Origin: Thiothrix subterranea
GTDB taxonomy: Bacteria > Pseudomonadota > Gammaproteobacteria > Thiotrichales > Thiotrichaceae
NCBI RefSeq assembly: GCF_016772315.1
Contig: NZ_CP053482.1
Span: 620,001-684,000 of the forward strand
Direction: 5' to 3'
DNA: 64,000 nucleotides
Both the position numbers and the translations under genes were made by a program. The notes beneath the pieces were generated by a model. That model did not search any database. It saw only the letters and a list, made by a program, of their open reading frames with translations, and had not been told where the DNA came from. Position 1 is the stretch's first letter, and every line of letters starts with the position of its first letter. Below, in pieces: positions 18,906 through 35,260 of the stretch.

Positions 18906-20222
18906 TTATTTCCCCAACTTCATCAGCTTGCCGCCCTGCTTATACGCCAACGCTTCCAAGATGATGCCGTTGGTGTTGGCGGTAAGCGCTTTGTTGGGCT
19001 GACCGCTGACCTCATACAAACCGGAATACCAACCGCGTTCGGGGTCAGCCAAGGTCGCCGCCTTCTCCACCAGTTTCTGGGTATAATCGGTTTCATACAG
19101 CGCGTGCCAGCCAAATGCTGCCTTGGTACTCAACGTTTTAAACTGGCTGGCATCTTCGCCCTTCTCCGTGATAGCGTTCCAGATTTTGCCATCGGTAAAC
19201 ACCGTGTTGTAAACGAAGTACGGCGGCTGGTCGATATTGTCTTCCGACACGGCGGTGAGAATGCCCGTTTCGGCAAAGCGCTTTTCCTGTGCCTTATACA
19301 CACGCCATGCCAATTCTTGCGACAGGTGATCCCAACCGAATTCCACGCCATCCAGAATGTACGGTTCACTCACCACGTAGTTGTGCGCTCCGTATTGCTG
19401 CGCACTGCGGCTATCGGTGGCAACTTGAATCCCGCTAATATCCACAAACTTGAGGTAATCGGTGTAACGCAGTGAATTGGAAACATCCAGCCCCATCAGA
19501 TTGAAGGACTTGGCAGCATATTCTTCATAGCCCAAACGCCCTTCCTGTAGGTATTCGGTTTTGCCATCATCACTAACCGCCGCGCCATACAATACGCCCT
19601 GCACCAACATCGGCGCGGTATCCCACGTTTCCAACACCCGCTTAACCGATGCAGTGTGTTGCGGGTAATGCCAAGTCAGCACGTTAAACGGCACGAGTAC
19701 ACGCCCGATGTCGATTGCCGACCAGCCAATGCCTTTTTCGCTCGGCTGATTGTTGTAATCCACCATTTGTAAGGAAATCGTGTTGTAGGATTTATTCGGC
19801 AACTTGCCTTCAAACAGTGGCATTTTCGTCAAAGAATCCAAGGCTTTGAAAATACGCGCATCGAATTCGGTTTGATCAATAATCCCTAAGCGTTGCGCCG
19901 CAATCACCGCCATCAAATACGACGAAGTATCCCACAACGTGGAGGCGTTATACTTATCAACCGAATTCACCAGCCCCGTTCCAGGAATCGTGTTGTTCTG
20001 AAAATACTTCCACGCCGTTTTTGCCCACGCCATTTCCTGCGCGGTTAAGGCACGCGGCGGCGCAATGTTTACCTCAGTGCTGATGTCGATCATTGCCTCC
20101 GGGGTATTCGCATTGCCCACACTAAGCCCTTCCAACCAACCCACCAAACCAAACGCGGTGACTAACCCTGTCAAAAAAATCAAATGGCTACGCGCACGCA
20201 CCAAGCCCTGTTTAAAACTCAT
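18906..20222 (-). CDS. DUF3131 domain protein A
   Basis: A 438-residue protein with an N-terminal signal anchor (about 11-32) and one DUF3131 domain over the rest. Diagnostic blocks shared with two paralogues in this window: AWKYFQNN...TGLVNSVDKYNASTLWDTSSY, GIGWSAIDIGRVLVPFNVL, EGRLGYEEYAAKSF, VVSEPYILDGVEFGWD and LTAVSEDNIDQPPYFVYNT. The alternating helices and the aromatic/acidic loops suggest an (alpha/alpha) barrel of the kind seen in glycan-active enzymes, but no activity is established. I start at ATG 20222 with a GAGGTGA site; it overlaps the glycosyltransferase stop (ATGA). As last gene of the glycan operon it probably acts on the product in the periplasm. Unlike paralogues B and C it lacks a C-terminal CxxC. 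Confidence 0.85.
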   Translation of the reverse strand: MSFKQGLVRARSHLIFLTGLVTAFGLVGWLEGLSVGNANTPEAMIDISTEVNIAPPRALTAQEMAWAKTAWKYFQNNTIPGTGLVNSVDKYNASTLWDTSSYLMAVIAAQRLGIIDQTEFDARIFKALDSLTKMPLFEGKLPNKSYNTISLQMVDYNNQPSEKGIGWSAIDIGRVLVPFNVLTWHYPQHTASVKRVLETWDTAPMLVQGVLYGAAVSDDGKTEYLQEGRLGYEEYAAKSFNLMGLDVSNSLRYTDYLKFVDISGIQVATDSRSAQQYGAHNYVVSEPYILDGVEFGWDHLSQELAWRVYKAQEKRFAETGILTAVSEDNIDQPPYFVYNTVFTDGKIWNAITEKGEDASQFKTLSTKAAFGWHALYETDYTQKLVEKAATLADPERGWYSGLYEVSGQPNKALTANTNGIILEALAYKQGGKLMKLGK

Positions 20223-22039
20223 ACTGTCACCTCTTCTTCTGGTCGCCAAAACGCCGCCATCACAATCCCACTCAACGCCAAAATATTATTCAGCCCCCAA
20301 AACAGATTGGTCAGAATTCCACCCATCGAATAATCATCGTTACCCAGCACAAAAAACTGCACGCTGGCATACGCAATCCCCAGCACCGTCAACACAATCA
20401 CCGCAAATTGCGGCAGCACCAGATGGAAAAAATTACCTTCTTGCCGGTCTTTTGGTGTCACCGGAAACTTAATCTGTTCACCCTTCAACACCGTCCAAAT
20501 CGCCTGAAGATTCACCGGGAAAAATGACAAGTAACTGGCTTTGGAACGGTAGCCCGCAATTCCCCATGTCCCCACCATAAACGCCAATTCCATCGCAATC
20601 AGGAACGGCAAAATGTGCAGGAAAAAATCCCCGGTGTAAGCACTCACCGGCGCAATCCCACTAAACAAATACACCAAAGGTGCTGCCAAAAACATCATAT
20701 TCCAGATACCACCAAGGTATGACCATGCCGTTGCGCCATACATCAAGCGTTGCGCCCAACTCATGCCTTTGCGCGTCATCGGATTGTCGTGCATGACAAT
20801 ATCCAATGTACCGCCTGCGTATTTAAAGCGTTGCACTGTCCAACTCAACAAGTCTTGCGGCGACAACATTTTGGATTCAACCGCCGGATGCAGCACCGAT
20901 TTCCAATGCCGATCTTCATCCGAATGCAGCACAATCGAGGTGTAAATATCTTCCGAAACGTGGAAACGGTACGGGGTAAATTCCTCTTCGCCCGCTACCT
21001 GATGGCGCATTTCCTGCACCAAACCGCTGTCGAGTGCTTCCCCACCCATCAGCTTTTGCAACTGTTTGGACTGCTTACCGACCTGCTTTTCGATGGTATC
21101 GGAATAGGTTTTGAGCGCCGCTTCCATCACTGCTTCACGCCGATGGATCGAGCCTGCCCCGCAACAAAACGACGCATTCGCCCAGTTACGGCGGCGTTGG
21201 ATAATGTCGTAAAACATTTTTGGCTCATTCACGAACGGGTCTTCGCCCACGCGCATTTCACCGATCATTGCTTCCACGCCTTTGCCCAGCCAACGACCGG
21301 GGGCTTTCAAGTATTTACCCAACACATCGGGTAAACGTTTGCCTTCCGGCAGGTCGAAAAACCATTGCGGAGTTTGCACCCACGCCACGTCAGGGTCGCG
21401 AAAATAGCCGAGCGTGTGTTCCAAAATTGTCGGAAACGGGCGCGTATCGGCATCGCAAATCACAATGAAATCACCGTGGGTTTGCTCCATCGCATTGCGC
21501 AAATTGCCTGCTTTGAAACCGATATTGCTGGTGCGGGTGATGTAACCCACACCCTCTTCTTCCGCGACTTGGCGCATTTCCGCGCGTTTGCCATCATCCA
21601 ACACGAAAATTTTCAGTTCAATCGAATGCGGATATGTCACCTTTTTGGCATCACGGATACTCAGGCGTACCAGCTCCACATCTTCATTGTAGCTAGGGAA
21701 AAACACATCCACCTTCAGCGGGCGTTCTTCGCCATGATCAGGGCGCACCACTTCACTGAGTGTCGAAGGCGGCGGCAATTGCTCATAATCCTGCACTTTC
21801 CACAAGTTGAACACGAACAAGCCCAGCCCAAAATAGGAGGCGGTTTCCGCAAATGCCAGCGGAATCGCATACCACAGCGCATCCGGATTAAGCGAAGCCG
21901 TCCACCGCCACCACAAATACCACGCCCCCAAGGTCAAGGCGATGACGGCGAGAAATTGCCAAATGCTTTCCGTTACCGCCGAATATTCCAGCGGCGGTTC
22001 GGGTTTGCGGTCTTCAAACTTGTCGAAATAGAATCCCAT
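20219..22039 (-). CDS. Cellulose-synthase-like GT2 membrane glycosyltransferase
   Basis: A 606-residue processive-type family 2 glycosyltransferase. Two N-terminal membrane helices (about 25-85) are followed by a cytoplasmic GT-A domain with the four expected motifs: D in FVLDDGKR, DxD in VICDADTRP, the catalytic TED-like SEDIYTSI, and QRFKY in place of the classical QxxRW. At least four or five helices follow. Such enzymes polymerise UDP- or GDP-sugars and push the chain across the inner membrane. No PilZ domain is present, so direct c-di-GMP control is unlikely. It shares an operon with a GH2 lipoprotein, a sugar nucleotidyltransferase and two partner-switch proteins. The polymer made is unknown. 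Confidence 0.9.
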   Translation of the reverse strand: MGFYFDKFEDRKPEPPLEYSAVTESIWQFLAVIALTLGAWYLWWRWTASLNPDALWYAIPLAFAETASYFGLGLFVFNLWKVQDYEQLPPPSTLSEVVRPDHGEERPLKVDVFFPSYNEDVELVRLSIRDAKKVTYPHSIELKIFVLDDGKRAEMRQVAEEEGVGYITRTSNIGFKAGNLRNAMEQTHGDFIVICDADTRPFPTILEHTLGYFRDPDVAWVQTPQWFFDLPEGKRLPDVLGKYLKAPGRWLGKGVEAMIGEMRVGEDPFVNEPKMFYDIIQRRRNWANASFCCGAGSIHRREAVMEAALKTYSDTIEKQVGKQSKQLQKLMGGEALDSGLVQEMRHQVAGEEEFTPYRFHVSEDIYTSIVLHSDEDRHWKSVLHPAVESKMLSPQDLLSWTVQRFKYAGGTLDIVMHDNPMTRKGMSWAQRLMYGATAWSYLGGIWNMMFLAAPLVYLFSGIAPVSAYTGDFFLHILPFLIAMELAFMVGTWGIAGYRSKASYLSFFPVNLQAIWTVLKGEQIKFPVTPKDRQEGNFFHLVLPQFAVIVLTVLGIAYASVQFFVLGNDDYSMGGILTNLFWGLNNILALSGIVMAAFWRPEEEVTV

Positions 22040-22051
22040 AACTGTGCATTC

Positions 22052-24208
22052 TTATTGTTGTGGTTGAACGGTGAAACGGTATTCGTTGCTGCTTAACAGA
22101 TTGCCTTGCGCATCGTGGATAGCGGCTTCCAGACGGTACTCGCCCGCATCCAATGCAGGTGCGGTGTAATCCCGCAAATGCTGGTGCATATCCGCCGTCA
22201 GGTTGAATGCCCATGTTTGCGCATCCAGCGTTTGCTTGTCGCCTAACAGTTTGATGGCATAACGTGCATTCGGGTAATTCGCGGCGCTGTCATTCAACGC
22301 CCACGCGCCAAACGTAATGGTTTCACCCGCTGCATAATCCACCTTGTTCCACGCCAGACTCGGCAAAATGGGCTGATAAGCACGTTGCAAAGCGTAATAC
22401 CCCGGTTTGGGTTTGCGCCAAAAATCCACCATGCCCCAATTCATCGAAGCCCAATCTTCCACCAGCATGAACTGGAACAACGCTCCGACTGGACGGTACG
22501 CTTGGCGACGGTAGGATTCTGCTGCAAGCTGATTTAACCGCGCTTGGTATTGCTGGGTATTATCAATGAATTCATCCAACGTTTTGCCTTGTGGGATCTT
22601 GGCAATCTCCAAGGTTTCTTTGCGCTGGAAGTTGTGAAATGCCCATGCCTCCCATGCCGCATCGGTGGTGGGCAATTCCGCTTCATGCCCCAGAATCTTG
22701 CGCAAGGTTGCTTTATCCGGCAAGGCTTGCGCACCGAATTCGGCTATGGTGGCGGTCTTGGTCGGCTTGGCGTAATCGAGCCAATGCCCCGAATACCAGC
22801 CCAACCACGGGTGTTCTTTGGTGGAAGAAATCATGCTGATCGGGCGAGTTTTTTCCAACGCCAACGCCGCACGATGCAGCTTGTTATCCAGCACTTTGTT
22901 TTGCTGCGGGTTGTAATCTTTGTACTTCCACTTCATCCAATCCGCATCCCACGGTGGCTCGTTGTGCAACGTCCACTGGATGATGGAAGTGTATTGCCCG
23001 AATTGGCGGATCATATCGCCGACTTGTGACACCGCTTGCTGATGGAATTCGGGTGTGTCCTGATAGCCCCATTGCAATGGGAAATCTTGCCACACCATCA
23101 AACCCATTTCATCGCACAAACGGTAAAATTCAGGGGCAGTGACGTGGGCATGGACGCGCACGGTGTTGATATTCGCATCCAGCATCAATTGAATGTCGCG
23201 GCGAAAATCAGCCGATGACATCTCACTGAGCCACTGGCTGGCAATGTAATTCGTGCCTTTGAGCTGGATACGCTGGTCATTGATGCTCCAGATTTCTTGC
23301 GGCGAACGGCGGATTTTGCGGAAGCCAATGGTGCGCTCGAAGGTATCGAGTACTTTGCCATCGTGTACGGCGCTGACGGTTAGCTTGTAGAGGTTGGGGT
23401 TGCCGTAGCCGTGCGGATTCCAGAGTTTAGGATTAGAAACGGTAATAGATAAGGATTGACGTGCGGGCGTTTCGCCCCGCCAAGCCCCTATTTGCCATTG
23501 CAGTTTAGTGTTTGCTGGCAACTCCCCCAATACATCCAAAGCCACCAACACCTGCCACTGCTCCAGCCCTTGCACCGGCTGCACCTGCACACGTTTGGGT
23601 TCAAGTTGTACCTGCTGTGTTTGGCGCAAACGCACCTCACCCCAAATGCCGCCGGTATTCTGTTCCTGCCCCCGATCCGACCAAGCCCCACCGGGGCGCG
23701 TATCGTGGTGCGAAAAAATGCCTTTAATCAATCGCTTACGCAGCGAATAATCTTCCGCCTTTTCCTGCGGACTGTTCACTCGCACCAGTAAAATATTCTC
23801 GCCAGCCTTCAGATGCTGCGAAATATCAAACGCAAATTCTTGAAAATAACCTTCGTGTGAACCGAGCTTTTGCCCGTTCAACCACACAGCGGCAAAGTAG
23901 TCCACCCCGCCAAAATGCAGGGTAGACACGGTTTCAGGGGACGTATTCGCGTTAAACTTGAGCCGATACCATGCCACGCCATGATGGTCATAGCCTTGCG
24001 TGTACCAATTGCTGGGAATATTGATGGTTTGCCATACGGCTTTGGCAGCGGGCATAGCCTCCGAACCGGAGGGCAGAAATTCCCACTGCCCCGCCAGCGA
24101 ACCCGTTTTACTGACAGAATCAGGCTGACTGGACGGGATGCTGCTGCATCCCTGCAAGAGCAGTACCCACACCATGATGACTGCCCAAACCAGCCGTTTC
24201 ATCTTCAA
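22052..24208 (-). CDS. GH2-type glycoside hydrolase lipoprotein
   Basis: A 718-residue protein starting with a lipoprotein signal (LLLQGC, Cys21). Domains: N-terminal GH2 sugar-binding jelly roll (WYRLKFNANTSPETVSTLHFGGVDYFAAV, in pieces WYRLKF and HFGGVDYFAAVWLNG), an immunoglobulin-like domain, and a TIM barrel with the acid/base Glu in WTLHNEPPW and a probable nucleophile Glu in IAEFGAQ; a C-terminal beta domain follows. Relatives are beta-mannosidases, beta-galactosidases and glucuronidases, so the substrate cannot be assigned. As an outer- or inner-membrane lipoprotein in the synthase operon it could trim or release the new glycan. Its ATG overlaps the stop of the anti-sigma-type gene (ATGA). 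Confidence 0.88.
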   Translation of the reverse strand: MKMKRLVWAVIMVWVLLLQGCSSIPSSQPDSVSKTGSLAGQWEFLPSGSEAMPAAKAVWQTINIPSNWYTQGYDHHGVAWYRLKFNANTSPETVSTLHFGGVDYFAAVWLNGQKLGSHEGYFQEFAFDISQHLKAGENILLVRVNSPQEKAEDYSLRKRLIKGIFSHHDTRPGGAWSDRGQEQNTGGIWGEVRLRQTQQVQLEPKRVQVQPVQGLEQWQVLVALDVLGELPANTKLQWQIGAWRGETPARQSLSITVSNPKLWNPHGYGNPNLYKLTVSAVHDGKVLDTFERTIGFRKIRRSPQEIWSINDQRIQLKGTNYIASQWLSEMSSADFRRDIQLMLDANINTVRVHAHVTAPEFYRLCDEMGLMVWQDFPLQWGYQDTPEFHQQAVSQVGDMIRQFGQYTSIIQWTLHNEPPWDADWMKWKYKDYNPQQNKVLDNKLHRAALALEKTRPISMISSTKEHPWLGWYSGHWLDYAKPTKTATIAEFGAQALPDKATLRKILGHEAELPTTDAAWEAWAFHNFQRKETLEIAKIPQGKTLDEFIDNTQQYQARLNQLAAESYRRQAYRPVGALFQFMLVEDWASMNWGMVDFWRKPKPGYYALQRAYQPILPSLAWNKVDYAAGETITFGAWALNDSAANYPNARYAIKLLGDKQTLDAQTWAFNLTADMHQHLRDYTAPALDAGEYRLEAAIHDAQGNLLSSNEYRFTVQPQQ

Positions 24209-24636
24209 ACCAACTGCTTGCTGACGTGCAGGTGGTTGCCTTTGGCATCACGGATATAGCGAATGGAATCTGCCAGCAAGTGAATCAAACCCATGCCCCA
24301 ACCGCCTTCCGGCAAGTCTTCCGGGTCAGGCATTTCATGCGTCTCGGCGTGTACCGCGTCTGGCATCGTGCGCCCACTGTCAGAAATGATCAGATTCACC
24401 ACTTCCGAGTTGTATTCCACCCGCACCCGCACATCGTTGCCACCCTGCATTTCGTAAGCGTGTTCGATGACATTGTTGACGGCTTCCACCATCATTAATT
24501 CGAGTTGCCCCAGCTTATCATCGGACAGTTCCAGCTCTTTGCCGATCCCGCGTAATGCACCTGACAACACCCGTACTTGCTCCAAACGGCTGTCGATAGA
24601 GAGCCGAATGTCATAGTGTTTGTAAGTCGTTTCCAT
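24205..24636 (-). CDS. RsbW/SpoIIAB-type serine kinase (HATPase_c_2)
   Basis: A 143-residue GHKL ATPase of the anti-sigma-factor kinase family. The N-box is ELMMVEAVNNVIEHAYE (about 46-62), the G1 box ISDSGR (about 84-89) and the G2 region GGWGMGLIHLLAD (about 111-123). Family members either sequester a sigma factor or another partner and phosphorylate a STAS-domain antagonist on serine. A STAS gene is two genes upstream and a PP2C phosphatase lies in the facing cluster, giving all three parts of a partner switch. No sigma factor gene is seen here, so the target may be a non-sigma protein, as in several Gram-negative biofilm switches. Embedded in the glycan operon with overlaps on both sides. 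Confidence 0.9.
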   Translation of the reverse strand: METTYKHYDIRLSIDSRLEQVRVLSGALRGIGKELELSDDKLGQLELMMVEAVNNVIEHAYEMQGGNDVRVRVEYNSEVVNLIISDSGRTMPDAVHAETHEMPDPEDLPEGGWGMGLIHLLADSIRYIRDAKGNHLHVSKQLV

Positions 24637-25826
24637 TAGGCTGCCTCCGTTTCCCGTGCCAATTCGCCATAGAAACTGTGCATATTATTGAACAGCAGCA
24701 TGTCGTGAATGTCGCTAGGGTTGAGCGCCCGGCGTCTGTCATCCACTAACCAGCGAATTTGCGTTTCACCCACATTCAACACACTGCCATCCGGTGCAAT
24801 GCAGTCACCGCCAAAGATCAGTTTGTGATCCAAGGTTGCCATGCCACCGATGCGGGTATAATCGCTAATCAGGCATTCGCTGATTTCTGCGCCAGACTCG
24901 ATCAGGCAGTTAGCCCCAATCATGCACGGGCCGGTAATCTTGCTGCCTGCTTCGATTTGCGTGCTGCTGCCAATGTAGACCGGCGGGATAATGTTGACCC
25001 GCTCCCAATTCACGCTGACATTAATCCCTGCCCATACGCCGGGGCGCACTTGTTTGCCGGGCATTTGAAAGCCGTGAATATCCCCTTGCAGGGCTTTGCG
25101 CGTGGCTTCCCACACATCCGGCACGGAACCAATATCCACCCACTGGAAATCCATTTTGATGCCGTAGAATTCCTCACCCGCCGCAACCAATGCCGGGAAC
25201 AACTGACTGCCAATGTCGTATTCCACACCCGCTGGGATATAGTCGAAAATCTCCGGCTCAAACAAGTAGATGCCGGTATTGATCAGGTTAGAAACCGCAG
25301 CTTCCGGCTTGGGCTTTTCCTGAAACTGCACAATGCGTTGATGCGCATCCAGTTTGACCACGCCGTATTTGTGTACTTCCTCGCGGGGGACTTCCTGCAA
25401 GATAATGGTCGCCACCCCGCCTTTTTCGCGGTGTTGGCGCAAGGCTTCGGTCAGATCGAGATCAATCCAGGCATCGCCACACAGCACAATGAAGGTTTCA
25501 TCGAAAAACCCGGAAAAGTTTTGAATGCGCTTCATGCCGCCTGCCGATCCTAGCGCCTTGCCTTCCAAGCCTTCTTCGGTCATGTAGCCTTCGTAGGAAT
25601 ACGCAATTTGTACCCCTAACTGATTCCCGTCACGAAAATAGTTTTCGATCACGGGGGCAAGGTGGCTGGTATTGACCACAATGTCTTCGACACCGTGAGT
25701 GCGCAGCAATTCCACAATGGATTCCATCACCGGCTTGCGCAAGATCGGAATCATCGGTTTGGGCATTTCGTTGGTAATTGGGCGCACGCGCGTGCCTTTA
25801 CCGGCTGCCAGAATCATCGCTTTCAT
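24636..25826 (-). CDS. Sugar-1-phosphate nucleotidyltransferase with left-handed beta-helix tail
   Basis: A 396-residue protein. The N-terminal nucleotidyltransferase domain has LAAGKGTRVRPITNEMPKPM (residues 7-26), substrate loop GSAGGMKR and metal Asp in VLCGDAWIDLD. The C-terminal part (about 265-345) has hexapeptide repeats such as IGSSTQIEAGSKITG and IGANCLIESGAEI, a left-handed beta helix. It resembles mannose-1-phosphate guanylyltransferases and glucose-1-phosphate uridylyltransferases; the base and sugar cannot be fixed by eye. It most likely supplies the activated sugar for the GT2 synthase downstream. Its stop overlaps the kinase ATG by one base. Confidence 0.88.
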   Translation of the reverse strand: MKAMILAAGKGTRVRPITNEMPKPMIPILRKPVMESIVELLRTHGVEDIVVNTSHLAPVIENYFRDGNQLGVQIAYSYEGYMTEEGLEGKALGSAGGMKRIQNFSGFFDETFIVLCGDAWIDLDLTEALRQHREKGGVATIILQEVPREEVHKYGVVKLDAHQRIVQFQEKPKPEAAVSNLINTGIYLFEPEIFDYIPAGVEYDIGSQLFPALVAAGEEFYGIKMDFQWVDIGSVPDVWEATRKALQGDIHGFQMPGKQVRPGVWAGINVSVNWERVNIIPPVYIGSSTQIEAGSKITGPCMIGANCLIESGAEISECLISDYTRIGGMATLDHKLIFGGDCIAPDGSVLNVGETQIRWLVDDRRRALNPSDIHDMLLFNNMHSFYGELARETEAA

Positions 25827-25861
25827 GAAAACCCCTCCTCAATTGGGTGATACGCGGTTAA

Positions 25862-26200
25862 CTAGGCAGCAACGGCACCTAATGCGGCTTCAACGCTATC
25901 AGCCATGCGGAATACGCGCTCCATGCGGGTCAGCTTAAACAGATCCGCCACAACACCTTTCGCACCGACAATGATCAGATCGCCACGATTGCCCACCATT
26001 TTCAACAGGCTGACCAGTACGCCGAGGCTGCTACTGTCCATGAACTTGACGGTGCTCAAATCCAAGACAATACGGGTTGCACCGTCTTCGAGCAGTTGCA
26101 CAATTTGATACTTAAATTCGGGAGCAATGGCAGCATCCATGCGGGTTTCGTCAATGGTTGCAATGGTAAAATCGCTTTGAACATGCGTAGAAAGTTTCAT
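25862..26200 (-). CDS. STAS-domain anti-sigma-factor antagonist
   Basis: A 112-residue SpoIIAA/RsbV-type protein. The phosphorylation loop reads VKFMDSSSLGVLVSLL, with the accepted serine at S56/S57 of the D-S-S-x-L-G motif. Unphosphorylated STAS proteins bind the GHKL kinase and free its target; phosphorylation by the kinase blocks this and a PP2C phosphatase reverses it. I start at ATG 26200, with GAGGA eight bases upstream; a possible ATG at 26215 lies inside that ribosome site. It is the first gene of the six-gene minus-strand glycan operon, divergent from the FIST gene. Confidence 0.92.
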   Translation of the reverse strand: MKLSTHVQSDFTIATIDETRMDAAIAPEFKYQIVQLLEDGATRIVLDLSTVKFMDSSSLGVLVSLLKMVGNRGDLIIVGAKGVVADLFKLTRMERVFRMADSVEAALGAVAA

Positions 26201-26244
26201 TCTTGTTGTCCTCATGATTAGGGAAATGGCTTCGGCTTATTATT

Positions 26245-26271
26245 TTTATATAAAATTATTGTATACACCAA
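26245..26271 (-). promoter_or_regulatory. Putative promoter of the STAS/glycan operon
   Basis: On the minus strand TTGGTG (26266-26271) and TATAAA (26245-26250) are separated by 15 bases in an AT-rich divergent region, about 45 bases before the STAS start. Plausible sigma-70 type but spacing is short. Confidence 0.35.
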
Positions 26272-26333
26272 TCAGGAAAAACCGCAACAAAAGTTGCCTC
26301 AACGGTCATGCGCGATTCGTATAAATATATAAC

Positions 26334-26362
26334 TTTCTTATCTGCTAATTGTTAAATATAAT
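26334..26362 (+). promoter_or_regulatory. Putative promoter of the FIST/kinase unit
   Basis: A perfect TATAAT (26357-26362) lies 50 bases before the FIST ATG; the sequence 17 bases upstream is a weak -35 (TTTCTT, 26334-26339). A weak -35 often means activator dependence; no operator is recognised. Confidence 0.4.
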
Positions 26363-26412
26363 GACTGACTAATCTTGTAAAAATAATAAACCAACGACAG
26401 GAACGCTTACCC

Positions 26413-27561
26413 ATGCACCTAACGCCTGCCCAAATCTTTGTTGATCAGAGTGGAAGCTGCGAGGGCTTGCTGCAATCGCTGGATAAAGCTATCGCGGCGG
26501 GAGCGCAAAGTGTCTTGGTCTTCGCCGCCGATGCGAATGGCTTCACTCCCGCGCAACTGGATACTTACCTACAAGCACTTTCCATCCCCATCTTTGGCGG
26601 TATTTTTCCTGAAATCATTGCCAATGGGCAAATCCTGCAACAAGGCAGTGTGGTTTGCGCCTTACCCATTGTCAGTGAGGTGTACCATATCGAACACTTA
26701 TCTGACCCTGATGCGGATTATTTTTCCGCAATAGAAGCCCTATCCGCACTAACACCCGCCAATGCCACCCTGGTAACGTTGGTTGATGGCTTAAGCAAAC
26801 GTATCAGCTCACTGTTAGAAAGCCTGTATGAAATCTTTGGCGGGCATTATCAATATATCGGCGGCGGCGCTGGCTCACTCAGTTTCGAGCAAAAGCCCTG
26901 TCTATTCAGCAACCAAGGCTTGCGGATGGATTGCGCTCAAATCACCTGCATCCAACTGCCGCTCAGTATCGGAATTGAGCACGGCTGGCGCAAATTTGCC
27001 GGGCCATTTTTTGTCACCGGCGCTTACAACAACACGATTACCACGCTTGATTACCAACCGGCTTTTGAGGTGTATCGCAAAGTCGTCGAAGCCGACAGCG
27101 GTAAACGCTTTGCAGATGGTACATTTTTTGATCTCGCCAAAGCCTACCCGTTTGGTTTGGAACGCTTAAGCAGCGATGTCGTGGTGCGTGATCCACTGTT
27201 CGTCGACGGTAATAAATTAATCTGTGTGGGGGAAGTACCCGCCAATCACATTATTTACATCCTCAAAGGCGAGGCTGATGACTTGCTGGCAGCATCACGC
27301 GCTTGCGCTACCACCGCCATGCGCGTGCCAACGCCCCCGGCATTGGGATTATTGTTCGATTGCATCAGCCGTACCTTGTTTCTACAAGAACGGTTTGCGG
27401 AAGAGATCGACAATATTCACGCGCATTTGCCTGCCGGAGTGCCATTGATCGGGGCGTTATCCTTGGGTGAAATCGCCGATGCGGGCAACACCTGTTTGGA
27501 ATTTTTTAACAAAACCATCGTCTTGGGCATCCTCGCTCAAACCAAGGAATCCGCTGCATGA
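26413..27561 (+). CDS. FIST-domain sensor protein (NosP-like)
   Basis: A 382-residue soluble protein with an N-terminal FIST domain (about 15-210; VLVFAADANGFTPAQL, YIGGGAGSLSF) and a FIST_C domain (about 225-375; ending GVPLIGALSLGEIADAGN, in which the GxLSLGE loop is typical). FIST proteins are ligand sensors, and the NosP subgroup binds haem and nitric oxide and controls a neighbouring hybrid kinase. Here the downstream gene is a hybrid kinase overlapping by four bases (ATGA), exactly that arrangement. Haem binding itself cannot be read from the sequence. The cluster also has an H-NOX, a second NO-sensor family. Confidence 0.87.
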   Translation: MHLTPAQIFVDQSGSCEGLLQSLDKAIAAGAQSVLVFAADANGFTPAQLDTYLQALSIPIFGGIFPEIIANGQILQQGSVVCALPIVSEVYHIEHLSDPDADYFSAIEALSALTPANATLVTLVDGLSKRISSLLESLYEIFGGHYQYIGGGAGSLSFEQKPCLFSNQGLRMDCAQITCIQLPLSIGIEHGWRKFAGPFFVTGAYNNTITTLDYQPAFEVYRKVVEADSGKRFADGTFFDLAKAYPFGLERLSSDVVVRDPLFVDGNKLICVGEVPANHIIYILKGEADDLLAASRACATTAMRVPTPPALGLLFDCISRTLFLQERFAEEIDNIHAHLPAGVPLIGALSLGEIADAGNTCLEFFNKTIVLGILAQTKESAA

Positions 27562-29225
27562 GTCCAACGCTGGAACTGGTTTCCATTCAATACGCACTGG
27601 CTTTATTGATTGGGCAAGATCTGGATTTGCGCACCATGTTACGCAAATTTTTGCCACCCGCCTTAAAGCTGCTGAATTGCCGGAGCGGTTACATTTGGTT
27701 GCACAAAGGCATCACGCTGGATAATGCGGCACAAGCCCCACTCCCTTGCTACAGCTACCCGACCCTGCGCGGCACATTGGAAACGGATCAACCCCTGTTA
27801 GCCACACACATCCTGCGACTCGCCAACCAAGGCTGGTCAATCAAAAAGCCGGGCGAAACCATCCTCATAGAAGACATGCATTACCATTTCATGCCGCTCG
27901 GCGATAACGGTTTATTGGTGGTCGTGCGTGAGCCGCCATTGCCGGAAGCCCACATACTCGCTTTAGGTTTGGTGCTCAGGCGTTTAGAAACCGCGTGCCT
28001 GGCCTGTTTGCAGCACGCCTATTTAGAAGATGCTCGCAAAGAAGCCTTGCAAGCCAAGGAAATGGCAGAACAAGCCAGCAAAGCCAAAAGCGAATTTCTG
28101 GCGATGATTAGCCACGAAATACGCACCCCCATGAACGGTATTATCGGCTTAACCGATTTAATGTTGTACAGCGAGGTATCGGAATCGCAACGCGAACACT
28201 TGGGCATGATCAAATCCTCATCGAGTGCCTTGCTGGATATTATCAATGAAATTCTCGATTTCTCACGCATGGAAGCCGGAACGCTGACGCTCAACACCGC
28301 TCCTTTCCAATTGCGGGCTTTATTGCAAGACACGTTTGCACCACTGGCCTTACGCGCCCGCGCCAAGCACTTGCAGTTTCAGTGGGACATTCTGGCTGAC
28401 GTGCCAGATGCTTTAGCCGGTGACATCGGGCGCTTGCGTCAAGTGATGATCAATTTAGTCGGCAATGCCATTAAATTCACCGAACAAGGCGATGTTAGCG
28501 TCACTATCAGCCTGCAAAGCGGCGCTCCCACGGGACAAGTGTTTGTCATGTTTGCCGTGCGTGACACTGGCATTGGCATTCCCCGCGACAAGCAAGCCAG
28601 CATTTTTCAGCCCTTTCAGCAAGCGGACAGCTCCATCACCCGACGCTATGGCGGCACGGGCTTGGGCTTAACGATTTCCTCGCAATTGATCGCCATGATG
28701 GGCGGTACTTTGCGGGTAGACAGTGATGTGGGTGACGGCAGCATTTTCTATTTCAGCGTGCCCTTCACCATCGTCGCTCACGTCAAACCGACAGCACCCG
28801 TTGCACCGCAGGCACTGCTGCGTGCCGAACGGGTATTGTCGATTTTATTGGCGGAAGATAATGCCGTGAACCGAATGCTGGCAGTACGCCTGTTAAACAA
28901 AGCCGGGCATCACGTCAAAGTCGCTGAAAACGGGCGCGATGCCGTGCAAGCTTGGGAAAACAATCGCCCTGATGTGATCCTAATGGATGTGCAAATGCCC
29001 ATTATGGATGGCTTGGAAGCCACTACCCTGATTCGGGCGCAAGAGCACGCGCAACAACTGCCTCACACCCCGATTGTTGCACTCACGGCCAATGCCATGA
29101 GCAGTGACCGCGAACAGTGCCTCAACAGCGGCATGGATGATTTCCTCAGCAAACCCTTTAACGTGCAAGATTTACTGGATGTGTTGATGCGCGTTTGTCC
29201 CGTTAAAGAAATCAATGATGAGTAG
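27558..29225 (+). CDS. Cytoplasmic hybrid histidine kinase paired with FIST protein (NahK-like)
   Basis: A 555-residue protein. The N-terminal 150 residues look like a degenerate GAF-type domain without membrane segments; a helical linker leads to HisKA (phospho-His H186 in [12 protein letters not shown]), HATPase (N-box QVMINLVGNAIKF, G boxes DTGIGIP and GGTGLGL) and a C-terminal receiver (acidic LAEDN near 431, phospho-Asp D477 in ILMDVQMP). It is translationally coupled to the FIST gene, so it is presumably the kinase that FIST inhibits or activates. A receiver on the kinase requires an Hpt intermediate, and one is encoded at 30565. Its last 54 bases overlap the tail of the convergent PP2C gene. 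Confidence 0.92.
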   Translation: MSPTLELVSIQYALALLIGQDLDLRTMLRKFLPPALKLLNCRSGYIWLHKGITLDNAAQAPLPCYSYPTLRGTLETDQPLLATHILRLANQGWSIKKPGETILIEDMHYHFMPLGDNGLLVVVREPPLPEAHILALGLVLRRLETACLACLQHAYLEDARKEALQAKEMAEQASKAKSEFLAMISHEIRTPMNGIIGLTDLMLYSEVSESQREHLGMIKSSSSALLDIINEILDFSRMEAGTLTLNTAPFQLRALLQDTFAPLALRARAKHLQFQWDILADVPDALAGDIGRLRQVMINLVGNAIKFTEQGDVSVTISLQSGAPTGQVFVMFAVRDTGIGIPRDKQASIFQPFQQADSSITRRYGGTGLGLTISSQLIAMMGGTLRVDSDVGDGSIFYFSVPFTIVAHVKPTAPVAPQALLRAERVLSILLAEDNAVNRMLAVRLLNKAGHHVKVAENGRDAVQAWENNRPDVILMDVQMPIMDGLEATTLIRAQEHAQQLPHTPIVALTANAMSSDREQCLNSGMDDFLSKPFNVQDLLDVLMRVCPVKEINDE

Positions 29226-30401
29226 TGAAATATCATCCGGCTTTTCCTTGGCGTCATTATCCAACCCCAAGGTGATAGCTAATTGCTGAATGAGCTGCTG
29301 AGCAGATTGCTGGCGCAGAGGTTGTAAGTAATTTTTCAAAGCAAGCTCGGTCATCATCGCACCATTCGCTTCATGCAACTCCAGCAAACCGTCCGAATAC
29401 AAAATCAAGCGACTTCCGCTGGGAAACGGCAAGCGTATGGTGTCGTACTCCATATCCGGCAATAAGCCAATCGGAAAGCCGGTGCAATCCAGTTGTTCCC
29501 ATTCATCACTAACGGGACTGTACAAAAACGGTTGCGGATGACCGGCTTGCACAAAATACAATTGCTCTTGGCGCGTATCGACCACCCCCATAATCAGCGT
29601 CAGGTAATGATCACCCGTATCCAATTGATAATGCAGGTGATGATTCAAGCGTTCCGCTAAACGCGACGGCAAGGTTGAAACGGCTTGCGGCGACAAATCA
29701 TCCAAACAATGCAATTCACTGGTAGCACTCAGTAAGGTTTGCAAACACATTGATAACAACGCCGACGCAATCCCGTGACCTGACACATCAATCGAATAAA
29801 AGAACAATAAATCATCATTGATTGGGAAATAATTAAAGGTATCCCCGCCGATGTATTGAGCAGGTTGGAAAAACCAATCCACTCGAATCTGCCCAAACAT
29901 TTTCTGGCTAGGCAACACCCCTGCTTGCAAAACGGCGGCGCGTTGCAAATCGTTTTGGATCAATTGTTGGGCAGCCGAAAGCGAGCCATTCACACTTTCC
30001 AGATGGCGGTTTTTATCTTCCAAGGTGTGTTCCAGATTCAGCACACGTTGGGCAGCACGCAAGCGAACTTCCAACTCTTCGCGCACAATCGGTTTGGTCG
30101 CAAAATCATCCGCACCCGCTTCCATGCCTTGAATCAGGTTTTGTTTCCCCGACATTCCGGTTAGCAAAATAATGTAAACGTAATAAGGCAGCTCCGCTGC
30201 GCGTACTGTGCGACACAAGGTTGGGCCATCCATGACGGGCATTACCCAGTCACTGATCACCAGTTGAAAATGGTGCTGTTGGATTAACTCCCAAGCCACG
30301 CGACCGTTCTCTGCCAGCATCACCTGATGACCCATCAGGGTAAGAATACGGCGCAGAATTAATTGCATATCTCTGGCATCGTCAACGACTAAAATATTCA
30401 T
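29172..30401 (-). CDS. PP2C (SpoIIE)-output response regulator
   Basis: A 409-residue protein. The receiver has acidic pair D7-D8, phospho-Asp D51 (LVISDWVMP) and Lys in FATKP; a coiled coil follows (about 128-155); the C-terminus is a SpoIIE-type serine phosphatase with metal motifs IDVSGHGIASALL, LYSDGLLE and KPDDISLLI. Such regulators dephosphorylate STAS antagonists. The matching STAS (25862) and kinase (24205) are in the facing operon and the phosphodonor Hpt is divergently transcribed 163 bases away, so this is probably the junction between the phosphorelay and the partner switch. The C-terminus overlaps the convergent hybrid kinase gene by 54 bases. Confidence 0.93.
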   Translation of the reverse strand: MNILVVDDARDMQLILRRILTLMGHQVMLAENGRVAWELIQQHHFQLVISDWVMPVMDGPTLCRTVRAAELPYYVYIILLTGMSGKQNLIQGMEAGADDFATKPIVREELEVRLRAAQRVLNLEHTLEDKNRHLESVNGSLSAAQQLIQNDLQRAAVLQAGVLPSQKMFGQIRVDWFFQPAQYIGGDTFNYFPINDDLLFFYSIDVSGHGIASALLSMCLQTLLSATSELHCLDDLSPQAVSTLPSRLAERLNHHLHYQLDTGDHYLTLIMGVVDTRQEQLYFVQAGHPQPFLYSPVSDEWEQLDCTGFPIGLLPDMEYDTIRLPFPSGSRLILYSDGLLELHEANGAMMTELALKNYLQPLRQQSAQQLIQQLAITLGLDNDAKEKPDDISLLIIDFFNGTNAHQHIQ

Positions 30402-30471
30402 TGGCTATATCTTATTTTTATGATGTTATTAACACTCGGATAGAGATATGCTACCATCAAATTATAAATTG

Positions 30472-30533
30472 TCTATATAGATAAAAATGATAAAAATACA
30501 ATTCCGGTAAGTGGCACATGCTGCGACTACCGG
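30472..30533 (+). promoter_or_regulatory. Palindrome and hairpin in the PP2C/Hpt divergent region
   Basis: A 10-base palindrome TCTATATAGA (30472-30481) is followed by an inverted repeat CCGGTA (30504-30509) / TACCGG (30528-30533), extendable by AGT/ACT with one bulged A. The hairpin would sit in the 5' leader of the Hpt transcript. Operator or leader structure is possible; no known family is recognised. Confidence 0.3.
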
Positions 30534-30564
30534 CTTAGCACAATCGAGCGGTTGAGGTACACAA

Positions 30565-30915
30565 ATGACTGCGCATAGCCCTATCGATGCAACAACCTAC
30601 GCGGAACTTCAAGAAATCATGGCGGATGAATTCGCGGAAATCATTGATTTTTTCATCACTGATACCGAAAGTTCATTAGAGCTACTCCAGCAATGCGTTG
30701 ACACCCAAGACAGCGCACAAGTTGGCACTATCTGCCACAAACTCAAATCCAGCAGTAAGATTATTGGTGCGTTCGCATTAGCCGACATCACCCACTTACT
30801 CGAAAGGTACAAAGATCATCAGGATCAACCCACTGCGTTTTTGCACATCACCCAGATGCGTGAGGAATTTGTCAGCGTCCTCGCATGGCTCAAGCAACAA
30901 CCTGCCATCGCTTAA
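30565..30915 (+). CDS. Histidine phosphotransfer (Hpt) protein
   Basis: A 116-residue all-helical protein with the Hpt signature around H58 (CHKLKSSSKIIGA). Hpt proteins carry phosphate from the receiver of a hybrid kinase to the receiver of a response regulator. Both neighbouring hybrid kinases end in a receiver and the only stand-alone regulator nearby is the PP2C protein, so this is the likely common relay. It is 45 bases upstream of the H-NOX gene and probably co-transcribed. Confidence 0.9.
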   Translation: MTAHSPIDATTYAELQEIMADEFAEIIDFFITDTESSLELLQQCVDTQDSAQVGTICHKLKSSSKIIGAFALADITHLLERYKDHQDQPTAFLHITQMREEFVSVLAWLKQQPAIA

Positions 30916-30960
30916 CGGTACGACACCACCAAACCGCCCCAATAACAATAGGTATAACGC

Positions 30961-31509
30961 ATGAAAGGTTTAGTGTTTACAGAATTTCTGGAAATGGTGG
31001 AACAAACCTTTTCCGCTGACATGGTGGATGACATCATTGATGCATCCGATCTGCCCTCTGGTGGTGCGTACACCGCTGTAGGAACTTACCCGCATTCTGA
31101 AATAGTCACCTTAGTACAACAGCTTGCCATCCAGACAGGAATGCCGGTACCTGAATTGGTCAAAGCGTTTGGACGTTACTTATTCGGGCGTTTTGTGGTG
31201 CTCTACCCCAGCTTTTTTGCCGCAGCACCAGATGCGTTCGATTTTCTCGATTCGATCGAAAACCACGTTCACGTTGAAGTACGCAAACTCTACCCCGATG
31301 CAGAATTACCCACGTTTGAAACCGTGCGTGAGGGCAAACAAAAACTGATCATGATTTACCGCTCGAAACACCCCTTTGCGACTTTAGCAGCGGGGTTAAT
31401 TGATGGCTGTCTCACTTATTACCAAGTGGAAGCACAAACTGAAATGGTCGACTGTTCCGCTGGACAAGGGACACACGTTGAATTCCATATTACCCGGATG
31501 GCAGCCTAA
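30961..31509 (+). CDS. H-NOX haem sensor protein (HNOB domain)
   Basis: A 182-residue stand-alone H-NOX protein, a haem-based nitric oxide sensor family. The proximal haem ligand is H104 in [11 protein letters not shown]; typical N-terminal and core motifs are present ([23 protein letters not shown]). The propionate-binding YxSxR motif reads Y133-R-S135-K-H137: the conserved Arg is His, an unusual change checked in the DNA (CAC codon). Stand-alone H-NOX proteins normally bind and regulate a kinase encoded next door; here the stop overlaps the start of a hybrid kinase (TAATG). It may respond to NO or have altered haem affinity. Confidence 0.92.
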
Positions 31510-33254
31510 TGAGCGACGAGGTAGCCCGTTTACAACGCCGTCTGGAGCGCGAGCGTGCCTCCCGTAAACAGGCTGAGCAATTGCTGGAAAGCAAAAGTCT
31601 GGCGCTGTATCAAGCTAACCTAGAGCTACGGGCGCAAGCGGATTCCCTAGAACAAACCATTGCCGAACGTACCCGTGAATTGGTGGAAGCACGCGATCAG
31701 GCGCTCTCGGCAAGCCGTTCTAAAAGTGCATTTTTAGCCGCCATGAGCCATGAAATCCGCACGCCGATGAATGGCATAATCGGCATGACAACCTTGCTGC
31801 AAGACACCAATTTGGATCAGAACCAGCGGCGTCAAGTCGAAATGACCTTGCATTCTGCGCAATCCCTGTTGGGGATTATTAATGACATTCTCGACATTTC
31901 TCGGCTCGACGCGGGCAAGCTGGAACTACTGGAAGAAGACTTCAAACTCAGCGAAACCTTACCCAGTATTATTGAAACGCTTGGGGTTATCGCCAATCAG
32001 AAACAACTCGAACTCTTTAGCATTGTCGACAAACGCATGACCAACTGTTTACATGGTGATGCCTTACGCTTGCGGCAGATTTTGATGAATCTACTGGGTA
32101 ACGCGATTAAATTTACGCAGCACGGGCAAATTGTGTTACGCATCTTACCCGCCACCCAAATGGCAGAAGGTATCCGTGTCGAAGTACAGGATTCCGGGGT
32201 AGGTATTCCGCCAGACAAACAACACTCACTGTTTCATGCATTCAGTCAAATTAACCGTTACGACCAGCACAATGGTAGCGGTACGGGCTTAGGCTTAGCG
32301 ATCAGCCGCAAACTGGTACACCTGATGGACGGCGTTATCGGAGTCGACAGCCAACCGGGGGCAGGCAGTACGTTTTGGTTTGAAGTACCCTTCAAAACCA
32401 CGAATGGGGGCAAAAGCTGCGCCACACACTTAAGCAGTCGGTGCTTAGTCGTGCACCACAATGCGTTACATGCACACTTAATTACCGAGCAATTAAGCAA
32501 TCTTGGGGCGCAATGCTGGGTACTCAGTGAGCTAAGCGAGGCCAATGATTTACCGGATGCGCAAACCTTTGACTGGTTAATCGTCGATTACAACAGCTAC
32601 CCGTTGTCGCAACGCGCCGCATTGGATCAATGGTTAAAACGCTTAAACGCCTTAACGCCGCCCGTGCATCTGTGCAATATTTCCTCGCAAACCAACAGTT
32701 GTTCGCAATGCAGCATCCCCAGTGCGTTGAACCATTGCAACTGCCTGTTGAAACCCGTGACGCAAAGCAAACTGCTGAATTTATTAGCTGCACCGCCACC
32801 ATCAACCGAGGCGGCACTGTTGCACAGTGAGTCAGCAGCCATCACACTGGCACGCCAAGCACAGGCCGATGTGCTACAAAGAGGCACGCACATACTGGTG
32901 GTAGAAGACCATAAGGTGAATCAACTGGTGGCGAAAGGGATGCTGGCAAAATTAGGCTACCGCGTCACCTTAGCCGAAGACGGCTTTCAGGCGCTGGATA
33001 AAGTGCGCACCCAAGCCTTTGACTTGATTTTGATGGATATTCAAATGCCCGGCATGAGTGGTGTTGAAACCACGCGCCATATCCGCGCTGAATTCCCTGA
33101 CAATACCATTCCTATCATTGCACTCACCGCTAATGCCATGAAAGGCGATGAGCTGGAATACCTGCAAGCCGGAATGAATGCCTGCCTAACCAAACCCATC
33201 CAGTTGGATGTACTGGCCAACACGCTCAAGGAATGGTGTCCAGTCACAGCCTAA
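31509..33254 (+). CDS. Hybrid histidine kinase paired with H-NOX (HnoK-like)
   Basis: A 581-residue cytoplasmic kinase without a membrane segment or classical sensor domain. It begins with a coiled coil (1-75), then HisKA (H81 in [11 protein letters not shown]), HATPase ([25 protein letters not shown]), a degenerate receiver-like domain (about 305-425: VVHHNA lacks the acidic pair though VDYNSYP keeps an Asp), and an intact C-terminal receiver ([10 protein letters not shown]510 in LMDIQMP). Overlap with the H-NOX gene shows coupling, so sensing is probably supplied in trans by H-NOX. Confidence 0.92.
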
Positions 33255-33823: not shown

Positions 33824-35260
33824 CCTCAAGGTAGCACTCGCCTGGTTGGCTGGCTCCGTCTTGGCTGGTGTTTTAATCTTCTTCATTACCCACAGCGCCC
33901 CCCCGTAACAAACCCAGTAGCAGCGACTGATTCCCCTAGCTTGTTGCAGATGTTAACAAGCGGCTCCACCGCCGGGCGGAATGACACCTTTTGCGCCCTG
34001 ACCACCGGCCCTGACAACAGTTGTTTAGGTTCACCGCAAGCCTTGTGCAGCACCGATCAGGAAATGGCACAAATTGCATGGAAATACTTTGAAAACAATT
34101 ACAACCCTGAAACCGGGCTGTACAACGCGGCTGACAAATACCCTTCCACCACCATGTGGGATACCGGCTCGGCACTCGCTGCCACGATTGCTGCCCACGA
34201 TTTCGGCCTGATTGACGCCAAAGTGTTCGATGACCGCATTCGCAGCATGTTCAAAACCTTGAGCAATATGGAGCTGTTTAACAAAGAAGCCCCCAACAAG
34301 GTTTACCACACCGTCAGCGGCGCAATGGTGGATTACCGCAATCAACCCGCACCGGAAGGCATTGGCGTTTCCGCACTGGATCTGGCGCGGATTATTTCGT
34401 GGCTAAACACCCTAAGTTGTATGCACCCGCAATACGCTTATCCCGCGCAAAAAGTGATTGAACGTTGGGATCTAAAACGCCTGATCAAAGACGGGCAAAT
34501 GTTCGGGCTATACCGCGACCCTACCTCAAAAAACATGGTGGTTGCGCAAGAAGGCCGTCTCGGATACGAGCAATACGGCGGCAAAATCTTCCGCGAACTC
34601 GGTTACGACCAACACGTTGCTGCCACCTATAACAACGAATTTCGCGAAACCATCAATATCTACGACGTACCGATTGCGTATGACCGTCGCGACCCGCGTG
34701 ATTTGGGCGCATACAATTACGTCGTCACCGAATCGTATGCGATGGATGCCATCGAAAACGGCATTGATGCAGAAAATCGCCCGTTACTGGACAATATTTA
34801 CCTGGTGCAAAAACGCCGTTGGGAACAAACCGGCATTCTCACCGCCGTATCCGAAGACAATATCGACCAAAAACCGTACTTCCTCTACAACACCATTTTC
34901 ACCGCAGGCTTGCCCTGGAACACCACCACCGACAAAGGCGTGCGTTATGACAGCCTCAAAACCGTGTCGGTAAAAGCAGCATTATCGCTGGCGATTCTCT
35001 ACCCCGAAGACCCGTACAGCAAAGAACTCGCTTACAACGTCAGCTCCGCTTATAACCCGGAACGCGGCTGGTATTCCGGGATCTACGAAAGCGGCGGCGG
35101 CTACAATAAAGCGATTACCGCCAATACCAATGGCATTGTATTAAGCCTGTTGCTGTACAAAAAATACGGTGAATTTTACCCCATCTGCAAACGCTGTGAA
35201 CGCGGCCTCAAACCCAAACTGATGGCGGCAAAAACGTGCGATGCCTGCACCACTGAATAA
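33810..35260 (+). CDS. DUF3131 domain protein B, interrupted by a frame change at a C7 tract
   Basis: The gene starts at ATG 33810 (AGGAG nine bases upstream) and encodes a signal anchor, but the frame stops at 33908 after 32 residues. The DUF3131 domain continues in the frame one base back to 35260. Adding one C to the C7 run at 33898-33904 makes one protein: the anchor continues as APPVTNPVAATDSPSLLQML into the domain. Shared blocks: AWKYFENNYNPETGLYNAADKYP, in pieces; EGRLGYEQYGGKIF; VVTESYAMDAIENG; LTAVSEDNIDQKPYF. The C-terminus has CKRC and CDAC, a possible metal or disulfide site. It overlaps the downstream gene by 20 bases. Confidence 0.85.
33898..33904 (+). repeat. C7 homopolymer at the DUF3131-B frame break
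   Basis: Seven C bases directly after the signal anchor. One more C restores a continuous frame, the same change needed in pilQ at 15488. Confidence 0.7.

Follow-up and report, generated by a model that had tools for sequence, protein, structure and literature searches.

We analyzed a stretch of 64,000 nucleotides from the genome of Thiothrix subterranea (4.08 Mb in 4 contigs), referred to here as the window, and in it a locus at which two sensor-type proteins (H-NOX and FIST) and their hybrid kinases lie beside a phosphotransfer protein, a putative partner switch and a run of glycan genes. Open reading frame (ORF) calls and Pfam/NCBIfam scans placed the genes for STAS, nucleotidyltransferase, GHKL, glycoside hydrolase family 2-like (GH2), GT2 and DUF3131 proteins in one direction on the minus strand. 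On the plus strand, the genes for FIST and the hybrid kinase HHK1 share a 4-base overlap, and those for Hpt, H-NOX and the hybrid kinase HHK2 are closely consecutive. The gene for a response regulator with a receiver (REC) and a PP2C domain lies between the two plus-strand groups on the minus strand, its end overlapping that of HHK1. The nine proteins named in a preliminary description of this DNA were all present where it had placed them, with phospho-sites and catalytic motifs intact. The circuit proposed there is real as regards its genes but extends further left than had been drawn, as far as the genes for GT2, whose matches were to glycosyltransferase models only, and DUF3131.

Table 1. 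Genes of the locus, with positions counted from the first base of the window.
Feature	Position	Strand	Evidence and remarks
DUF3131 protein a, final gene in the glycan run	18906-20249	-	Pfam PF11329, E 1.1e-152; adjoins GT2 in relatives
GT2 glycosyltransferase, putative glycan synthase and candidate output	20219-22039	-	Pfam PF00535/PF13641
Glycoside hydrolase family 2-like protein	22052-24208	-	Pfam PF22666/PF02837/PF00703/PF02836
GHKL serine kinase, RsbW/SpoIIAB type	24205-24636	-	PF13581 (HATPase_c_2), E 7.8e-24
Sugar-1-phosphate nucleotidyltransferase with hexapeptide tail	24636-25826	-	PF00483, E 3e-56; missing in some relatives
STAS protein, anti-sigma-antagonist type, phospho-acceptor Ser61	25862-26215	-	PF01740 and TIGR00377 above cut-off
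FIST protein (FIST_N+FIST_C), divergent, optional sensor	26413-27561	+	PF08495/PF10442
Hybrid kinase HHK1, His186/Asp477, N-terminal domain without Pfam family	27558-29225	+	
REC-PP2C (SpoIIE type) response regulator, Asp51	29172-30401	-	
Stand-alone Hpt, His58	30565-30915	+	PF01627
H-NOX, proximal His104, motif YRSKH for YxSxR	30961-31509	+	PF07700, 130.8 bits (cut-off 25.5)
Hybrid kinase HHK2, His81/Asp510, extra degenerate middle REC	31509-33254	+	

The proteins of the proposed partner switch retained their key sites across relatives. In all 23 aligned rows, the PP2C regulator kept the motifs GGD, D(V/I)SGHG, AGHP, SDG and DD, which we took to be the catalytic motifs worth scoring, the STAS protein kept the FMDSS motif that contains Ser61, and the GHKL protein kept the Glu and Asn of its N box; the G1 and G2 boxes were variable in more distant rows. 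The receiver Asp of the regulator was present in 22 of 23 rows (one gap), and its acidic pair was missing in the 2 of 23 whose N-terminus falls outside the ORF taken. (In these alignments of key sites, two stretches of a second relay in the relative G001, described below, shared one label, one of them representing both.) The regulator, of 409 aa, is composed of REC and SpoIIE domains only, and the kinase is a separate gene. By sequence, the GHKL protein has RsbW (6m36) and SpoIIAB (1til) as solved relatives, and solved partner-switch relatives were also matched by the STAS protein.

Elsewhere in the genome few other partners are left for these proteins, because it has a single SpoIIE-type PP2C, at the locus, only one of its six STAS matches in a short frame, again at the locus (the other five are in frames of 511-630 aa), and one strong HATPase_c_2 match, the locus GHKL protein (84.2-84.5 bits), with 11 further matches, the best of which (30 bits) also passes the cut-off. 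These three and the sole H-NOX of the genome all lie within 8 kb, a grouping not to be put down to chance. Should the cell have a partner switch of this type, the genes of the locus are likely its parts.

The relay proteins were similarly conserved. Hpt His58 was kept in 20 of 20 aligned rows, and the H boxes (SHEIRTPM) of HHK1 and HHK2 in 23 of 23 rows each, with the receiver Asp present in 22 of 23 for each kinase (one gap each). The middle REC of HHK2 is degenerate and dispensable, since it is absent from 7 of 23 rows, which hold shorter versions of HHK2. The preliminary description had spoken of one Hpt, and this is true of the locus but not of the genome, which has five Hpt matches, two of them in short frames. 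The other short-frame Hpt lies next to a hybrid kinase of its own and a regulator of the OmpR type, and there may be cross-talk between it and the locus relay.

The 182-aa H-NOX has 6ocv and 6bde as its closest solved chains, and its His104 aligns with the proximal heme His of solved H-NOX chains. This residue was present in 23 of 26 aligned H-NOX proteins, including that of the window; the alignment left out the relative G004, where an unread base gives X. YxSxR is an H-NOX motif, of which the window protein keeps Tyr133 and Ser135 and has His137 in place of the Arg. Within the genus, 13 of 15 rows have His at this position, and 10 of the 11 remaining rows have Arg. The HNOB domain and the proximal His are those of an H-NOX, and the His that stands where YxSxR has Arg weakens the proposal that the protein is a heme sensor of nitric oxide (NO).

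The FIST protein is one of four encoded in the genome. Its AlphaFold model (mean confidence, pLDDT, 90.9) had its best Protein Data Bank matches in FBXO22 (Foldseek E 2.7e-8, TM score 0.52), itself a FIST-domain protein, and a sequence comparison with solved structures returned chance matches only. The residues His190 and His279 were invariant in 23 rows of the locus FIST type and missing in the 4 NosP-like proteins compared. Its partner HHK1 begins with a domain of ~165 aa (window 27558-28067) that had no Pfam match, is highly conserved together with the FIST partners, and gave a model (pLDDT 87.8) with weak roadblock/GAF-like structure matches.

A search for H-NOX gave matches in 27 of 57 genomes, counting that of the window. 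Within the genus we compared stretches of at most 20 kb, and PP2C, Hpt, H-NOX, HHK2, STAS and GHKL sequences occurred together in 14 of the 15 other genomes, 13 of which also had GT2. The neighborhood is therefore conserved beyond a single genome, a point on which the preliminary description had staked its circuit. G004 keeps PP2C and H-NOX but has a partial GHKL match, and GT2 and its neighbors are missing between that match and aroB. G008 has its H-NOX-HHK2 and FIST-HHK1 pairs a few kb apart, with no PP2C module and no GT2. Outside the genus, 9 of the 20 family genomes searched had H-NOX, and in 6 of these (G018, G021, G023, G024, G026 and G035) the STAS/GHKL/GT2 set was nearby; PP2C was in the same stretch in 5 of the 6, the contig of G035 ending at STAS. 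In G016 and G032, GT2 and PP2C lie on a contig other than that of H-NOX, and G030 is without both.

GT2 and the PP2C regulator were closely tied across the family. Among 63 family genomes, 29 had both and 32 neither, counting G420, with a REC-only match, as lacking PP2C; GT2 alone was found only in G035, at a contig end, and PP2C alone only in G004, which was the only one of the 33 genomes without a GT2 match to hold a full PP2C regulator. When both were present, they were on one contig within 11 kb in 27 of 29 genomes and on different contigs in G028 and G408. Similarly, in the 36 family genomes covered by both searches, GT2 and H-NOX occurred together in 22, GT2 alone in 1, H-NOX alone in 3 and neither in 10. 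In loci that lack FIST, PP2C and STAS are neighbors on the same strand, separated by 75-85 bp in all 6 same-genus loci and by -86 to 65 bp in all 6 loci compared from the rest of the family, as measured from longest-ORF starts. This adjacency suggests that the two genes are probably part of one operon that runs on into GHKL and GT2, in the order PP2C-STAS-(nucleotidyltransferase)-GHKL-(GH2)-GT2-DUF3131. Anatomy and conservation together support the PP2C-STAS-GHKL partner switch, its link to the glycan operon, and the placement of H-NOX and HHK2 beside the Hpt.

We rejected the idea that the circuit is widespread beyond this group. The PP2C-STAS-GHKL-GT2 set was carried by 5 of the best 80 of 550 named H-NOX loci, many of these 80 ending early at contig ends; the 5 were from a Thiothrix sp., Thiothrix eikelboomii (with FIST-HHK1), Leucothrix arctica and two uncultured Thiotrichaceae. 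Across 369 genomes of the class, GT2 gave 2 matches at E<=1e-60, the window's own included, and the second of these genomes had no switch gene in the 1.5 kb flanks of the match. Separately, at a Curvibacter H-NOX locus (L172), a FIST/hybrid-kinase pair lies at a distance of a few kb, and there are no STAS or GHKL matches.

In contrast to the core genes, FIST-HHK1 comes and goes. It is present at the locus in 8 of 15 relatives (G002, G003, G005, G006, G009, G010, G012 and G013) and absent from it in 6 (G001, G004, G007, G011, G014 and G015), the fifteenth being G008. The locus FIST copies formed one clade (10 rows, support 99/99), so their insertion at the locus was probably a single event. A concatenated core-gene tree, which left out the second relay of G001, placed the FIST-bearing loci in two clades (two changes), and quick trees of STAS, GHKL, Hpt, H-NOX, HHK2 and two DUF3131 genes required 2-5 changes for FIST presence; the HHK2 count is unsure, as the G013 row had a branch length of 10 and is probably the neighboring 943-aa kinase. 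At that locus (L037), HHK1 is split into two ORFs, and a 943-aa hybrid-kinase ORF lies between HHK1 and PP2C. A GT2 tree (14 rows) rejected grouping by FIST presence (AU test, p 3.6e-8).

A second relay, a duplicate, was found in G001. On contig C26 (L090, L101 and L102), two hybrid kinases and an Hpt are followed by PP2C-STAS-nucleotidyltransferase-GHKL-FIST-HHK1. The only H-NOX and the only GT2 match of this genome are on contig C4, and neither lies close to the second relay. The PP2C of this relay shares 90% identity with G001's own PP2C and grouped with it in a tree that left out L049, L050, L053 and L101, and the relay's FIST grouped with another G001 FIST. We infer that FIST-HHK1 joined such a relay a second time and at another position. 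Near the HHK1 of this relay are a CbbQ/NirQ/NorQ-type AAA ATPase (~3 kb away), a COX3-like gene that we read as NorE-like (~4.5 kb), a NapC-like gene and, ~19 kb away, a cytochrome d1 protein; the norQ/norE-like and cytochrome d1 neighbors would fit NO sensing. A link between FIST at the locus and nirS was rejected, as strong cytochrome-d1 matches were seen in 4 of the 9 same-genus genomes that have FIST there and in 4 of the 7 that do not. From gene content, the sensors look like plug-ins on a PP2C-STAS-GHKL-GT2 core.

On balance, we lean slightly towards a reading in which an Hpt-centered phosphorelay with plug-in sensor/kinase modules sets a PP2C-STAS-GHKL switch dedicated to one GT2/DUF3131 glycan operon. 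The sequence itself shows the parts, their sites, gene order and conservation, and that they are the sole such parts found in the genome; the phosphotransfer, NO as ligand, the sign and the final target are proposed as follows. In the ligand-free state, HHK2, under the control of H-NOX, and, where present, HHK1, under the control of FIST, would autophosphorylate, and phosphate would pass along a His-Asp-His58(Hpt)-Asp51(regulator) path. The phosphorylated regulator would activate its PP2C, which would dephosphorylate STAS Ser61, and the GHKL kinase would re-phosphorylate it. Free and phosphorylated STAS would differ in their binding to GHKL or to another partner, and this difference would set glycan synthesis. 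By analogy with Vibrio fischeri HnoX and Pseudomonas aeruginosa NosP, NO would lower kinase activity, leaving STAS phosphorylated and less glycan made. Passages of PMC8570282 describe Thiothrix filaments with a mucous sheath, rosettes and gonidia, and it is a guess that the glycan is sheath or holdfast material. A bolder version, which we would not expect to hold in full and consider doubtful, is that PP2C-STAS-GHKL gates the synthase directly and post-translationally, with no sigma factor, transcription factor or cyclic di-GMP domain involved, that the sensor/kinase cassettes H-NOX-HHK2 and FIST-HHK1 swap in and out in evolution via one Hpt, and that this FIST subfamily, as distinct from NosP, senses a gas or redox state.

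Several observations weigh against the dedicated-switch reading, and they concern its output, the place of the FIST module, and the ligand. As regards output, G004 retains PP2C without a GT2 match, and the statistical association of GT2 with PP2C (Fisher p 1e-15) and with H-NOX (p 1e-5) ignores shared ancestry in both cases. The switch might instead control a sigma factor (RpoS or FliA/FlgM), as in HsbR/HsbA or CrsR/CrsA, with the glycan operon as one regulated target or simply a neighbor. The anti-sigma domains of HsbR and CrsR bind RpoS in two-hybrid tests, according to passages of PMC6482189, and the regulator of the locus resembles 3eq2, its best full-length solved relative, described as a 'probable two-component response regulator', and, far below the cut-off, Pseudomonas RssB (its best NCBIfam match, 148.4 of 700 bits). 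However, no sigma or anti-sigma gene, transcription factor or cyclic di-GMP domain was found among the genes scanned at window 17829-38317, and the PP2C regulator follows GT2 across the family, with G004 as the lone case of a full regulator in a GT2-less genome. We therefore regard control of a sigma factor as unlikely, though with a real minority chance.

As regards the FIST module, the preliminary description had it feed the Hpt. Because the pair is optional and its genes stand between those of PP2C and STAS, this feeding can only be proposed; the second association with a relay in one relative argues for it. The pair does not need the locus, since 10 of 16 same-genus genomes also hold FIST-HHK1 pairs at a distance from any relay; in three stretches (L085, L103 and L043) these adjoin genes read as hslVU or glnE. 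In the PP2C tree (16 rows), FIST-bearing and FIST-less loci separate without exception (100/100), and four residues (212, 226, 228 and 257) are fixed differently between the two groups. Because these differences are in the catalytic domain and not in REC, we rejected adaptation of PP2C to a second kinase; the signal fits linkage more than such adaptation, and we read it as an exchange of the insert with the neighboring part of PP2C by recombination. It is accordingly conceivable, if rather improbable, that H-NOX/HHK2 alone feeds the relay and that FIST-HHK1 is a mobile passenger signaling to partners elsewhere. Such a passenger would account for the 6 of 15 relatives that lack the pair at the locus and keep the relay otherwise, for the paralogues away from relays, for the strand of the pair, opposite to that of PP2C and STAS, and for the linkage signal. 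Against it, FIST-HHK1 is associated with Hpt/PP2C/STAS/GHKL modules in two instances at different positions, and the intact REC of HHK1 would need some Hpt, the only nearby one being that of the locus.

As regards the ligand, the FIST protein did not match the curated NosP model NF041558 (cut-off 450 bits) at E<=0.001, while two other FISTs of the same genome matched it weakly (60.8 and 64.1 bits). The NosP label is therefore not justified, and the proposal that this protein is a NosP NO sensor is weakened. The proximal His of H-NOX is lost in 3 of 26 proteins, those of G006 (Arg), G008 (Arg) and G030 (Glu); G008 and G030 have no PP2C and no GT2 matches, and in G006 the altered H-NOX sits inside an otherwise complete relay, with FIST present. 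No cytochrome-d1 (nirS-type) match was found in the window's genome, and thus no NO source of its own. The sign of the response also varies among known systems, as NO-bound Legionella NosP stimulates its kinase (passages of PMC8738867). Sensing of something other than NO, with FIST binding another ligand and H-NOX acting as a redox or apo switch, would suit the divergent FIST and its two distinctive His residues, the His in place of the YxSxR Arg within the genus, the loss of the proximal His in some relatives and the heme-independent H-NOX signaling discussed in section 10 of PMC8738867, but we hold it to be improbable, given that most H-NOX rows, that of the window among them, keep the proximal His and that norQ/norE-like genes are found close to the G001 relay that carries FIST.

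The dedicated-switch reading has precedents for its logic. Passages on V. fischeri (PMC12369376, PMC4517449) describe an HnoX-HahK-SypF(Hpt)/LuxU pathway in which, likewise, H-NOX controls a hybrid kinase that signals via Hpt proteins; there SypE, thought to be controlled by SypF, acts as a serine phosphatase on Ser56 of the STAS protein SypA, as PP2C would on STAS here, and SypA is required for polysaccharide-dependent biofilm. In contrast to the Thiothrix locus, where kinase and phosphatase are separate genes, SypE combines both in one protein, and syp adds the transcription factor SypG and has different polysaccharide genes; no FIST input appears in these syp passages. The mechanism of SypA was still called unknown in 2015 in the abstract of PMC4517449.

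The P. aeruginosa NosP-NahK-HptB-HsbR-HsbA pathway, as presented in passages of PMC11784011 and PMC6482189, shares with the locus a FIST-family NO sensor, a hybrid kinase, an Hpt common to several hybrid kinases, a PP2C regulator and an anti-sigma antagonist. NosP inhibits NahK in NO-mediated dispersal and NahK hands phosphate to HptB (PMC11784011); HptB in turn acts on HsbR, and the PP2C of HsbR on HsbA (PMC6482189). The Thiothrix gene arrangement fits a relay of the HptB/HsbR/HsbA kind, in which an Hpt common to several hybrid kinases leads to a PP2C regulator. However, HsbR has a fused kinase/anti-sigma domain, unlike the REC and SpoIIE regulator of Thiothrix, and the outputs in P. aeruginosa are RpoS, FlgM/FliA and HsbD rather than an adjacent glycan operon; its FIST sensor is NosP, whose model the Thiothrix FIST does not match. 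The term H-NOX is absent from PMC11784011. In Shewanella oneidensis, H-NOX and NosP likewise feed one network, going by a title cited in PMC12570481. The RsbU-RsbV-RsbW and SpoIIE-SpoIIAA-SpoIIAB systems likewise consist of PP2C, STAS and GHKL proteins, but at the Thiothrix locus no adjacent sigma factor was found and the PP2C is under a receiver domain. The S. oneidensis study reportedly has a cyclic di-GMP network as its output, as opposed to a partner switch.

That FIST genes occur near H-NOX genes had already been noted by genome-neighborhood analysis (PMC8738867, in a passage of section 10). A search of titles and the starts of abstracts, with most subscription papers outside its scope, found no description of the Thiothrix circuit. 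The statement that the circuit had not been described thus needs dividing: its logic has been described for V. fischeri, and portions of it for P. aeruginosa and S. oneidensis, whereas the occurrence of the two sensor types next to a single relay at one locus, the close family-wide tie to a glycan synthase, and the gain and loss of sensor modules are new as far as the searches show.

Since switch and synthase are nearly always together across the family, they offer a small, testable set of candidate targets. The relatives also provide a natural series, comprising relays that carry H-NOX alone, both sensors, FIST but no H-NOX (the second relay of G001) or an H-NOX that lacks the heme His (G006), useful for asking how sensors swap on one relay. 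In Thiothrix itself, the locus could link the behavior of sheath, rosettes or gonidia to gas conditions.

Three DUF3131 paralogues lie on either side of the regulatory block, at window 18906-20249, 33941-35260 and 36950-38317; the literature search, at the level of titles and abstracts, found no function for DUF3131. A 570-aa protein with no Pfam match (window 35241-36953) is encoded next to the second paralogue, DUF3131b, in most same-genus stretches.

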